Shown in pieces: positions 11,814 to 15,789 of a stretch of 64,000 bases of DNA; within the stretch, counting starts at the first letter, position 1; each line of letters begins with the position of its first letter. The stretch is from Bacteroidota bacterium (lineage in GTDB: Bacteria > Bacteroidota > Bacteroidia > B-17B0 > Aurantibacillaceae). Made by a program: the position numbers and the translations under genes. The DNA is taken from contig JABDCR010000002.1 in assembly GCA_013288015.1 (NCBI GenBank), positions 1 through 64,000 on the forward strand. The letters are read 5' to 3'. The notes beneath the pieces were generated by a model. It worked only from the letters and a program-made list of their open reading frames with translations. It was not told where the DNA came from and did no database searches.

Positions 11814-12104
11814 CTACCTTTCTAATTGCAAAAACCCTTTAGTCAATTTTGATTGCGTTCCATTTGATGTACCATCACACTTTACATTACTAGCTGTAGC
11901 GCCAAAACTTGCTATCCAAAAATAAACACCTGCGGGAACAGAATTACCTTCCTTATTTTTACCATTCCATCCATTTGTAATATCATTAGTTTCAAAAAGC
12001 AATTCACCCCATCTATTGTATATCTTTAAATTATAAGGTTCCGATAATAATTTGAGTTGATTGTACGTCTTCAAACCAATGCGAACTTTTATAGTTAAAA
12101 ATAT
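11814..12104 (-). pseudogene. Remnant of a T9SS type B sorting domain, cut by an IS element
   Basis: The last 90 or so residues of a T9SS type B (gliding-motility-associated) C-terminal domain. The reading frame contains IKVRIGLKTYNQLKLLSEP, then the hallmark IYNRWGELLFET, then GWNGKNKEGNSVPAGVYFW. The upstream TPNGDGxND part of the domain is missing, because the frame runs straight into the IS3-family element at 12105. The related N-terminal portion on the same strand starts beyond the IS (13597-15021), but the two frames do not join, so internal sequence was lost. There is no ATG in the fragment before KTYNQ. Confidence 0.8.
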
Positions 12105-12127
12105 TTGGACACTTTCTGATTTTAAAA

Positions 12128-13165
12128 TTAGTTATTTTTTTGATTCACATTTTCGTTTTGCGGTATAGTCATAAAATTATTTACTATCCTGCTTTGAACA
12201 TAATTCTGTCTTCTTTCTCTTAAAGTTTTTTGTTTGATTTTTTTCCTCCTTTCTATTTTTTTAACTGCCTGACCATAATACATATCGGCAGGTGTTACAT
12301 TGTTTAATGATTCGTGATAACGCTCGTAATTGTAATAGTGAACAAAATTCTTTAACGCACGTTCGAGTTCCATCGGACTGCAATACACATCCAGCTTAAT
12401 AACATTCTTCATGCTGCGATGATAGCGTTCTATCTTACCTTGTGTTTGCGGATGTCTTACACTTCCTCTGATGTGTTTTATTTCTCTTAACTTTGCATAG
12501 GCTTTAAAGTCATTTGCTATGTAACAGGAGCCATTATCACTCAAGAGCTTTGGCTTTTCATTAGGCTTGAGGCTTGACTTTAGCATAGCTTCATCTATAG
12601 TATCCATAACATCTTCTGCTTTCATGGATTTATAAAGCCTCCAGTGAACGATAAACCTTGAGTAATCATCAAGTACGGTGCTTAAGTAGTACCAACCCCA
12701 ACCAGGTATCTTAAAGTAAGTAAAATCGGTTTGCCACATTTCATTTACTCGATGTGTTTTGTCTTTGTACTCATCTGATGCTTTCATGAGCATAAATGCT
12801 GGTGTTGTGATAAGCCCTTGTTGTTTTAAGATACGATACACAGAACTTTCAGATACATAACGTTTGTATATATCTGTAAACAAACAGGCTACTTCTCTTG
12901 ATGAACGTTCAGGATAATCTAATGCTGTTTCAAGAATGAGTTGCTTTTCTTCCTCAGGTATCTGATTCCAGTATTGTTTACGTATACATGGTTTATTAGC
13001 TAACCCGTCATATCCCTTTTCAAGATAAGCATTGTACCATTGGTAAAACGTGCTGCTATGTATGCCAAACTCCTTTAGCGTTGCTTTAACGCCCAGTTCA
13101 GATTTCTCAACCAAACTGATAATTTCATATTTCTCGCTTTGATTTAAACGCATATACTTTTCCAT
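12128..13165 (-). CDS. IS3-family transposase OrfB (DDE integrase)
   Basis: A 345-residue transposase. The N-terminal part has its own helix-turn-helix (about residues 10-45, GVKATLKEFGIHSSTFYQWY). The integrase core follows with catalytic D147 (QTDFTYF), D210 (LSDNGSC) and E246 (GKIERYHRS), a DD35E spacing typical of IS3 and retroviral integrases. All three acidic residues are present and there is no frameshift, so it may be active. The frame differs from OrfA by 8 intervening bases; expression by its own start is plausible, and I did not locate a clear slippery site. Confidence 0.9.
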   Translation of the reverse strand: MEKYMRLNQSEKYEIISLVEKSELGVKATLKEFGIHSSTFYQWYNAYLEKGYDGLANKPCIRKQYWNQIPEEEKQLILETALDYPERSSREVACLFTDIYKRYVSESSVYRILKQQGLITTPAFMLMKASDEYKDKTHRVNEMWQTDFTYFKIPGWGWYYLSTVLDDYSRFIVHWRLYKSMKAEDVMDTIDEAMLKSSLKPNEKPKLLSDNGSCYIANDFKAYAKLREIKHIRGSVRHPQTQGKIERYHRSMKNVIKLDVYCSPMELERALKNFVHYYNYERYHESLNNVTPADMYYGQAVKKIERRKKIKQKTLRERRQNYVQSRIVNNFMTIPQNENVNQKNN

Positions 13166-13173
13166 TTTAGGGC

Positions 13174-13545
13174 TTAATCCAAGCCTGTTAAACTTTTTTT
13201 AAGCAAGTTGTTATGCAGATATAAATCAGCCAGAGCTTTCTTTAAATTATCGTTTTCTTTCTTTAGGTCTTGCACCTCGCTGGCATTAGCATTTCTTTCG
13301 GTATCTCCACTTAATCGTTTCTTGCCTGCTTCCAGAAAGTCTTTACTCCACTTATAGTAGATGCTATCATTAATGCCATACTTACGGCATAGATTAGCAA
13401 CGCTTTCTTCTCCACGCAGTCCTTCTAATACAATGCGTATCTTTTCTTCTGCACTATAAATACGATAATTCTTACGCTTGATGTCGTTTATTACGCTATG
13501 GGCTTTCTTTTTGTTATTCCCATGTTCCTGATTTTGTGTTTCCAT
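13174..13545 (-). CDS. IS3-family transposase OrfA (HTH and leucine zipper)
   Basis: A 123-residue DNA-binding subunit. The middle carries an HTH_Tnp_1-type domain (YSAEEKIRIVLEGLRGEESVA, then LCRKYGINDSIYYKWSKDFL), and the C-terminus is a heptad-patterned helix (DLKKENDNLKKALADL), the usual oligomerisation zipper. In IS3 elements OrfA recognises the terminal repeats and joins OrfB. It ends 8 bases before OrfB begins. The N-terminal 30 residues are polar and basic. Confidence 0.88.
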   Translation of the reverse strand: METQNQEHGNNKKKAHSVINDIKRKNYRIYSAEEKIRIVLEGLRGEESVANLCRKYGINDSIYYKWSKDFLEAGKKRLSGDTERNANASEVQDLKKENDNLKKALADLYLHNNLLKKSLTGLD

Positions 13546-13596
13546 TTTCTTTGATTTAATAAATTAAATTTAAGAAAATGTCCAATATGGTTTATG

Positions 13597-15021
13597 CTAA
13601 TTCAGTACACTTTCGTTTGACACTAAACAGTAATAGTAGAAATTTGTATAAAGTTCCTTCCAATTATATTCAGAAGGTACACAATAAGAGATTGGATAAA
13701 GATTTGGTAATGGTAATTTTATTAATTGGCTATTATAGATGCCATTTTTATTTACTCCATTATCATCTATAACATAACAGTTACCAATACTATCTAATGC
13801 TAAGCAATGAATATCAGAAGTATTATAAATAGTTGTAACTTGATTTCCCATGTTTATAGTAGTTAAAGAGGTATCTACCAATTGTATATTACTATAACCA
13901 TATTGATTTGGCGTGCCAACTATTATTTTATTAATGCAAGAGCTATAATTAATTCGCCAAATTTCACTAAATTGATTTGAAACTATTTGAGCCTGTTGCA
14001 CACCACTTTCATTCAATTTGACTATACCTGCACCATAGTTTGCATGACCAAGAGCAACATAAATTAAATTTGCATTTTTTACTACTGTAAAATCTCCAAA
14101 TTGAAATCCAAGTAAGCTCAATGTATAAGTCCAAAGTAAATTGCCGTTTTTGTCATATTTTTTAAGAAGATAAGGTGGATTATCTCCATAAATGAACACG
14201 TTACCTGATGTGTCATAATCAACATCGAATGCTTTGTCGAGTGAGATATAATTTGGGTCAGCTATCCATGGGTCAATAATAACTTCTTTGTCTTTTGGGT
14301 ATTCGCCCAAATTAAAAGCCACAGTATTATTATTACTTATATAACTACATTTTAAAATAGTACTATTCTCATTTCTTATAAATGCGGCAGGGTGGTAATC
14401 AATTAAAGAACCAATCTCACTCTTAATTTCCAAATTTCCCGCAGGAAGTAAGGAAATGACGCTTGATTTTGAAAACTTCATTTTTATATCCGAAGCATTA
14501 GCTCCTTGATGTAGAATGAATGAATATTTTAAACCTCCTGAATCCGCTAAGGTTTCAAATTTCAAATCAATATTCTTATAAATATCTTGGTAAATAATTT
14601 CCTTATAAGCACTTGCTTTTATACTACCTTTCTCTGAGGTATAGTATGTATAGTAATTTGCGACTTCCCTTTGTTTTACTGTGTTCACAGATGGATTAAT
14701 GTTGCTCCATTCCAAGAAGGTAAATTTATTCTCTAATTCAAACCCTTCTTCTTCGTTCTCCTTTGAAGTTTCATTTTCAGAATGCGTAACGATATATTTT
14801 GAAAAAATAATGCCTTTGTCTGTAAGAAAGTAGTAAATACCCTGTGTTCTAATAGAGTACAATATTTTTTGATTTGGAAAGTTCTTATCCAAATTGAATT
14901 GACCAACATTTTCGACAAAATCCTTTTGCTCAAATGGTTTTTTAACAGCCCATTTTATTTGAGCGTTACTTACATGCGAAAAAACAAAAATGATTAAAAT
15001 AATAACATATACTCTTTGCAT
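13597..15021 (-). pseudogene. N-terminal part of a DUF7948/beta-propeller secreted protein, truncated
   Basis: A 474-residue open frame with a signal peptide (MQRVYVIILIIFVFSHVSNAQ), then the N-terminal domain of DUF7948/SBBP-type proteins (FVENVGQFNLDKNFPNQKILYS; later IKMKFSKSSVISLLPAGNLEI and PKDKEVIIDPW), then propeller-like strands (KYDKNGNLLWTYTL). Related proteins usually continue with more repeats and a T9SS sorting domain. Here the frame stops at 13597-13599, only 11 bases outside the IS, and a fragment of a type B sorting domain lies on the other side. I infer a disrupted gene; a shortened exported product is possible but would lack a sorting signal. Confidence 0.7.
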
Positions 15022-15123
15022 AATAAAGTATTATAAGTAAAGGTAATATTTTTTAATTACGCATTTAAAGTTCGCTTTTTGCTTAATTTCGCGTCATTGT
15101 TGTATTAACGATGAAGTAGAAGG

Positions 15124-15789
15124 ATGAGATTAACCCTAGCAGAGAAAAAACTTAAACGAAACAAGCAAATTATTAAAGAACTTAAACGCGGTGTATTTCA
15201 TAAGGAAATAGCTGAACGTTTTGGCATAACCCGACAAACAGTGTGGGAAATTAGCAGAGAAGCTAAGATAAAAAGAAGGCTCAATCAAAAAGAAAATACG
15301 GAACGAAACAGTCAAATTGTTGATGCCCTGAAACAAGGAGTGTCCCAAGAAAAAATAGCCAAACGTTTTAGTTTATCTCAAGGTACTATTTGGCATATTG
15401 GTCGAGAAGCAGGATTCAAAGGAAGGTTAAGTTTAAAAGAAATTCAGTTACGCAACGAACGAGTTATTAAGGAACTTAAGAAAGGCACATATAGCAAAGA
15501 TGTATGTATCCAATTTGGTATTTCAAGAGCCACCCTATGGATTATTACAAACCGAGCAGGCATAAAAGGGAATCGAGCGCCAAAAGAAAACTCTGAAAGA
15601 GATAAGCTTATTATTACGGCAATAAAAAAAGGAGTGCTTTATAAAGACATATCTGCCGAACTTGATGTTTCAAAAGTTTTAATATGGAGGGTTGCCAAAC
15701 GAGCAGGTATAAATGGTCGAAAAAGTAAGTACAAACAAGGGATAAAATCCTTGATAAAATTTAGGATTAACAATTTAAAACAAAAATGA
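15124..15789 (+). CDS. Protein of four tandem helix-turn-helix units
   Basis: A 221-residue basic protein consisting almost entirely of four repeats of about 49 residues (units starting near residues 2, 52, 101 and 151), with a short basic tail. Each unit has a polar helix (RNKQIIKELKRGV type), then a homeodomain-like HTH: KEIAERFGITRQTVWEI, EKIAKRFSLSQGTIWHI, KDVCIQFGISRATLWII and KDISAELDVSKVLIWRV, each closed by a RAGIKG-like turn. HTHs of this kind occur singly in resolvases and transposases. Four in a row with no catalytic or ligand domain is unusual. It suggests a DNA-binding protein that reads a long repeated site. I do not recognise a characterised family. Confidence 0.75.
   Translation: MRLTLAEKKLKRNKQIIKELKRGVFHKEIAERFGITRQTVWEISREAKIKRRLNQKENTERNSQIVDALKQGVSQEKIAKRFSLSQGTIWHIGREAGFKGRLSLKEIQLRNERVIKELKKGTYSKDVCIQFGISRATLWIITNRAGIKGNRAPKENSERDKLIITAIKKGVLYKDISAELDVSKVLIWRVAKRAGINGRKSKYKQGIKSLIKFRINNLKQK

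Follow-up and report, generated by a model that had tools for sequence, protein, structure and literature searches.

A Bacteroidota protein built of four tandem helix-turn-helix units belongs to a patchy family of arrays that differ in unit number and have hypervariable recognition helices

In the 64,000-nucleotide stretch of Bacteroidota DNA analyzed here (the window), a poly-HTH (helix-turn-helix) gene starts with an ATG at 15124 and ends with its stop codon at 15789. These are exactly the coordinates of the original prediction, which described the product as four HTH repeats of about 49 residues and nothing else. The protein (221 aa) consists of four trihelical HTH units with an exact 49-residue period and a 20-residue tail. 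The gene stands alone, with a divergent DUF7948 gene (13597-15021) upstream and a 90-aa ORF and a response-regulator receiver protein downstream. The features of the locus are listed below; the unit HMM is a profile made from the protein’s own four segments.

15022 to 15123, no strand: divergent intergenic region of 102 bp next to gene 13597-15021, defined by ORF positions; would hold upstream signals
15124 to 15789, + strand: poly-HTH gene, four units and a short tail, 221 aa
15157 to 15282, + strand: HTH unit 1, residues 12-53; unit HMM 81.9 bits; predicted helices 5-21, 26-33, 37-46
15232 to 15261, + strand: recognition helix of unit 1, residues 37-46 (unit positions 26-35); exposed positions 26, 27, 28, 30, 31 are RQTWE
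15304 to 15429, + strand: HTH unit 2, residues 61-102; unit HMM 81.2 bits; predicted helices 55-70, 75-82, 86-95
15379 to 15408, + strand: recognition helix of unit 2, residues 86-95; exposed positions 26, 27, 28, 30, 31 are QGTWH
15451 to 15576, + strand: HTH unit 3, residues 110-151; unit HMM 82.8 bits; predicted helices 104-119, 124-131, 135-144
15526 to 15555, + strand: recognition helix of unit 3, residues 135-144; exposed positions 26, 27, 28, 30, 31 are RATWI
15598 to 15723, + strand: HTH unit 4, residues 159-200; unit HMM 76.4 bits; predicted helices 153-168, 173-180, 184-193
15673 to 15702, + strand: recognition helix of unit 4, residues 184-193; exposed positions 26, 27, 28, 30, 31 are KVLWR
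15724 to 15786, + strand: basic C-terminal tail, residues 201-221; pLDDT <50 over residues 199-221

Inspection of the ORF list for the 64-kb window revealed no evident defense, restriction or mobile genes except an IS3-family element (HTH_Tnp_1 ORF, 13174-13545; rve ORF, 12128-13165) located 1.6 kb from the poly-HTH gene. The element lies between the DUF7948 ORF (13597-15021) and a short ORF with a CHU_C type IX secretion signal (11814-12074) on the same strand, as if its insertion had split one secreted-protein gene (window 11814-15021). A search of the same genome with the 161 bp around the poly-HTH start gave no strong match elsewhere (the best spans 21 bp, E 0.015), and on this basis an autoregulatory or dispersed site was rejected.

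Self-comparison of the window protein gives peaks at offsets of 49, 98 and 147 residues (mean BLOSUM62 1.52, 1.34 and 0.62), while the best score from 1000 shuffles of its residues, with all offsets tested, was 0.48. This period, the four unit-HMM matches and a 12-helix AlphaFold2 model bear out the four-repeat description. The best Pfam match is HTH_23 (PF13384; 58.5 bits vs. a curated cut-off of 24.6), which recurs in four stretches. The best 25 of the 51 Pfam families matched are HTH-type domains and short DUFs only; they include neither the Myb model nor, in agreement with the original prediction, any catalytic or sensor domain, and these Pfam matches and the fold prediction show no domain other than the HTH units in the 221 residues. 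The RAGIKG-like ends noted earlier are present in the units, but in imperfect form (REAKIKRR, REAGFKGR, NRAGIKGN and KRAGINGR). The protein is strongly basic (K+R 56 vs. D+E 21, pI 10.8). Relatives have a fifth unit at the position of the tail; aligned to those units, the tail has no HTH similarity.

The AlphaFold2 model of the whole chain has three helices in each unit (mean pLDDT 75.7, pTM 0.33), with low confidence over residues 199-221, and a two-unit model (11 rows) reached a pLDDT of 81.9 and a pTM of 0.47. In these models the units are well formed; based on the two pTM values their relative orientation is not confidently predicted, as expected of beads on short linkers. Among solved structures, 2LVS (a CRISPR-repeat-binding protein, 105 residues) is the top Foldseek match for both models, although weakly so (E 0.23 and 0.098; probability 0.93 and 0.96), and VIA-align yields Z 6.4 across 92 residues (rmsd 7.0); for helical repeats, the Foldseek and VIA-align scores alike are modest. 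The weak whole-model matches include solved tandem-HTH DNA binders (2LVS, the Tc3 bipartite domain, Pax6 and Reb1). Predicted viral structures matched at E 0.001 or better number 24, phage endonucleases and unnamed proteins included.

The HTH unit is also similar to the DNA-binding domains found in serine recombinases of the Sin/gamma-delta type (2r0q, Z 7.1; 1gdt, Z 6.0). A domesticated transposon domain was among the origins originally proposed, and both the resemblance to resolvase and transposase HTHs and the nearby IS3-type element are consistent with descent from the DNA-binding domain of a transposase or resolvase, whether domesticated or decayed. We nevertheless consider this origin very improbable. 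P0001 scores 28.4, 23.3 and 22.7 bits against the NCBIfam IS630, IS21 and IS481 models, far below the cut-offs of 100, 160 and 224, and the unit profile gives the neighboring IS3 ORFs only 6 bits. Furthermore, there is no DDE in the window ORF, no catalytic domain was seen in the arrays, and relatives reach 11 units.

Searches for relatives recovered arrays of 4-11 units. The window’s genome encodes a paralog (G000:C25, L004:6535-7281; 248 aa, five units, 49-residue spacing), and the window protein was matched in 3 of 100 related genomes, its own included. A six-row profile had matches in 4 of the 87 genomes of the family and arrays in 3 of the 87, all within the window’s genus (seven genomes); the fourth match (G110, L043) was rejected as an ordinary response regulator with one HTH. 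G005 encodes a 504-aa protein of 10 units and a 262-aa protein of 5 units side by side, as well as two more divergent multi-HTH proteins, and G004 an array protein of at least 5 units that ends at the contig edge. The corresponding contigs are public as PLYA01000013.1 and CAJCJB010000003.1, the second of which is only 3.7 kb long and less safely assigned to the genus.

Arrays also occur outside the genus. With up to six candidates scored per genome, which makes the counts lower bounds, matches were present in 9 of 395 genomes of a phylum sample, mainly in one other, distant genus, and in at least 3 of 395 genomes of a class sample, including a third lineage (G553). In the distant genus 6 of 10 genomes matched, and the fetched arrays have 4, 5, 6, 6, 6, 6, 6, 6, 7, 7, 8 and 11 units; in the 8-unit ORF (L045), ~127 residues precede the first unit, perhaps because of a start-codon artefact. 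The long multi-HTH proteins of G553 are cut by contig ends, and two of the frames (L088:2-1060 and L090:1-621) are possibly one gene in two pieces. Mobile carriage of the arrays was not indicated by plasmid searches (no match), two scans of viral contigs (no relative) or phage searches (matches weak or none). The window protein belongs to a family that spans several genomes, varies in its number of units and has hypervariable recognition helices, and poly-HTH arrays are a patchy, fast-evolving class, a variant of the known kind ‘tandem-HTH DNA-binding protein’.

Variation among units was analyzed in an alignment of 107 units from 17 arrays (29 from the window’s genus, 78 from the distant genus). 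Left out of this set were L016, L042, L045:7052-8005, L076:6556-7359 and L076:8369-8653, whose units are divergent, few or nuclease-borne; L051 and L052 (short two-HTH proteins) and L053 and L054 (other multi-HTH proteins) were rejected as arrays and left out of unit counts. The core is conserved across the 107 units (R1, I5, G12, A19, I32 and G37, with hydrophobic partners). In the window’s genus, variability among the 38 positions is highest at 26, 27, 28, 30 and 31, which are exposed at the beginning of helix 3 (the recognition helix). This set was first noticed there, and the distant genus provided an independent check, in which the same positions are five of the top six in variability. 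When five non-core positions were drawn at random, their mean was as high as the observed one in 0 of 20002 draws for the window’s genus and 1 of 20002 for the distant genus. Inside each of the 17 arrays, the recognition five-residue sets are all distinct from unit to unit. HTHs that have different targets would in any case be expected to vary in their recognition helices; the notable feature here is the occurrence of such helices together in one chain.

The window’s four units alone have no excess of variation at the recognition positions (9012 of 20002 draws gave a mean at least as high); the TALE-like pattern of a conserved scaffold with hypervariable reading positions is seen family-wide and is absent within these four. 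W occupies position 30 in all four units, and three share an xTW core in the recognition helix. With no excess at these positions and W30 throughout, the window protein may, judging from its sequence, read similar or related sub-sites. RNA rather than DNA as the ligand of such a repeat protein would accord with the very basic composition and with weak fold matches to the SelB winged-helix RNA-binding domain. However, the units match DNA-binding HTH families and the variability is concentrated on the HTH face used for DNA, and we find RNA binding scarcely credible.

Three array ortholog pairs from sister genomes of the distant genus have dN/dS values of 0.38, 0.50 and 0.79, compared to 0.03-0.34 for eight neighboring gene pairs (the highest value at low dS); array orthologs change faster than neighboring genes in these genomes. 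Changes between orthologs affect 16 of 90 recognition cells vs. 37 of 384 other non-core cells (one-sided Fisher p 0.026), and 11 of 194 cells at core positions. The dN/dS values, all below 1, are no proof of positive selection and show relaxed or locally diversifying change. Unit number differs within the L046/L078 pair, in which one unit is present vs. absent, in frame. Identity between adjacent units reaches 92% (units 3 and 4 of L048), pointing to recent unit duplication.

Together, these data make it reasonably likely that the window protein is a modular, very probably monomeric, sequence-specific binder of double-stranded DNA that occupies one long asymmetric site. Counted in favor of a DNA reader were the HTH_23 matches in four stretches, the 12-helix model, the likeness of the unit to serine-recombinase DNA-binding domains, the weak matches to solved tandem-HTH DNA binders, the basic protein, the relatives with 4-11 units, the family-wide hypervariable recognition helices on a conserved core, the distinct five-residue sets within each array, the more frequent change at recognition positions between orthologs, and the gain or loss of units between orthologs; counted against it were the lack of a recognition excess in the window units, the uncertain unit orientation and the single copy of the upstream region. 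The originally suggested architecture, four DNA readers in one chain, is well supported, and we infer, for the window protein, DNA binding, monomeric action, the length of the site and a role as repressor or roadblock. The recognition helix of each 49-residue trihelical unit would enter the major groove, and the four consecutive units would together read one long asymmetric site. Having no effector domain, the protein would work through occupancy of DNA, which could block a promoter or some other DNA transaction or else mark and shape a small number of sites.

Cbp1 of the Sulfolobales (NF040595; PDB 2LVS), of the precedents found the one studied best, provides a mechanistic analog. Like the window protein, it has tandem duplicated HTHs joined head to tail by short linkers; in the portion of the published account used here (PMC10883916), its three HTHs arose by domain duplication and align 5' to 3' along the CRISPR repeat, and its other sites have a 21-bp motif. 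Scaling from 21 bp per three units, a site of ~28 bp for four units is perhaps a better guess than the roughly 40 bp originally proposed. In contrast to Cbp1, the arrays are bacterial, have 4-11 units rather than three, and carry recognition helices that differ among units.

The original suggestion of a repeat-binding protein has a real precedent in the best Foldseek match, but the match is weak. It appears unlikely that the window protein binds repeats in the manner of Cbp1, or serves nucleoid architecture, by coating an element repeated in the chromosome and so shaping or silencing that element. The NCBIfam Cbp1 model is matched by P0001 (34.4 bits), P0002 (a 5-unit relative; 43.4), P0003 (a 10-unit relative; 61.3) and P0005 (45.0), and the xTW core shared by three of the four window units is compatible with similar subsites; these scores, 34-61 bits, are nevertheless far from the curated cut-off of 140, and on score membership in the Cbp1 family fails. 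Differences among recognition helices within most arrays also argue against a tandem-repeat target. Cas1 (PF01867) was found in 0 of the 7 genus genomes, some of them incomplete (the window’s is 58% complete), and in 9 of 14 in the control rings; on this basis CRISPR-repeat binding was set aside as the literal function. Candidate minisatellites with a 21-bp period and differing sequences were present in all four G005 regions examined and on the G004 contig, as follows.

21-bp-period minisatellites: L015:1982-2079, L015:15284-15556, L080:7580-7797, L042:8334-8620, L016:4448-4493, L017:3160-3256

Such minisatellites were missing from the three examined regions of the window’s genome (only two two-copy repeats with a 22-bp period were found) and from the examined G003 regions. 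In G005 they occur both near and away from array genes, and a local minisatellite was rejected as the target.

The neighborhoods of the arrays bear on a further possibility, that the proteins are DNA-recognition or control partners of restriction-modification (R-M) or HNH-nuclease loci, with the window gene a stray copy that lacks such a partner. In the distant genus, three of the seven independent loci with arrays adjoin such genes: the L046/L078 array is directly upstream of an N6_N4 methyltransferase, the L075 array is directly upstream of a type III mod-res pair, and the L045 array lies beside an HNH protein with two like HTH units and a methyltransferase fragment. However, methyltransferases are common in this genus (3 to 30 matches per genome), so the linkage is only suggestive. 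ORF lists showed no R-M or HNH genes at the other four distant-genus loci or, in the window’s genus, at the window, L004, L015, L016 and L017, and neither ORF inspection nor Pfam analysis of the nearest genes revealed a restriction or methyltransferase gene beside the window array. The fetched own-genus array loci share no flanking genes beyond generic secreted-protein and signaling domains. We judge a partnership with R-M or HNH loci to be distinctly unlikely for the window protein. At the orthologous locus formed by L045 and L076, two-unit HNH-type proteins (L045:7052-8005 and L076:6556-7359) reside beside 8-unit and 6+6-unit arrays, respectively; the L076 protein stops inside the HNH motif and is possibly truncated. 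HNH and homing endonucleases with HTH repeats (PHROG 8446 and 7168; L045:7052-8005) use a like HTH unit as a DNA-reading arm, but the window protein and the arrays, unlike them, have no nuclease domain.

The chains of most bacterial HTH regulators contain a single HTH, and dimerization is what lengthens their sites. A chain with 4-11 HTHs whose recognition helices differ would instead read a long asymmetric site as a monomer, much as zinc fingers do in eukaryotes. TALE repeats are 33-35 residues long, compared to a window period of 49 with three helices per unit, and Myb proteins have two or three repeats, conserved tryptophans and other domains. By analogy only, the arrays resemble TALE repeats and zinc-finger arrays in their tandem modules, conserved scaffold, hypervariable base-contacting residues and repeat-number turnover; they differ in being built of 49-residue trihelical HTH units and in having no demonstrated code. 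They also resemble eukaryotic Myb R1R2R3, with its imperfect tandem repeats of ~50 residues, each an HTH (PMC2572630, in part).

The boldest reading, possible though doubtful and open to testing, is a zinc-finger-like modular DNA reader natural to bacteria. Such a bacterial HTH counterpart of zinc-finger and TALE arrays, which we put forward tentatively, would consist of head-to-tail modules with fast turnover of units and contact residues, serve as a private long-site binder in each genome, and be tied to R-M/HNH loci in some lineages. Fast unit turnover combined with recognition-helix change would give a direct view of how new DNA specificities arise via module duplication. Poly-HTH arrays would also offer a compact scaffold for DNA-binding engineering, and should there be a per-unit code, it might be possible to decipher and re-engineer them. 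Full-text literature searches brought up no publication on bacterial arrays made purely of multiple HTH units. As described in the accessible part of PMC5472282, one screen was limited to repeats of 30-43 residues, which places the 49-residue unit outside its reach; the part of PMC12839542 consulted describes BREX proteins with two and three HTHs.

Two G005 proteins (L042:5130-6350, 406 aa; L016:6460-7263, 267 aa) have several divergent HTH units at irregular spacing and are perhaps decaying arrays or members of another family. Phage multi-HTH proteins (PHROG 664, 1303 and 323) likewise carry several HTH units of the same general kind per chain, but their similarity is weak (30-32% for P0003), their units are divergent, and they are annotated as DNA-binding, regulator or unknown. 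In Proteus phage vB_Pmi_BCPPmi_001, a 171-aa ‘hypothetical protein’ (XQQ52070.1; L087:1489-2004) contains four HTH units and little else.
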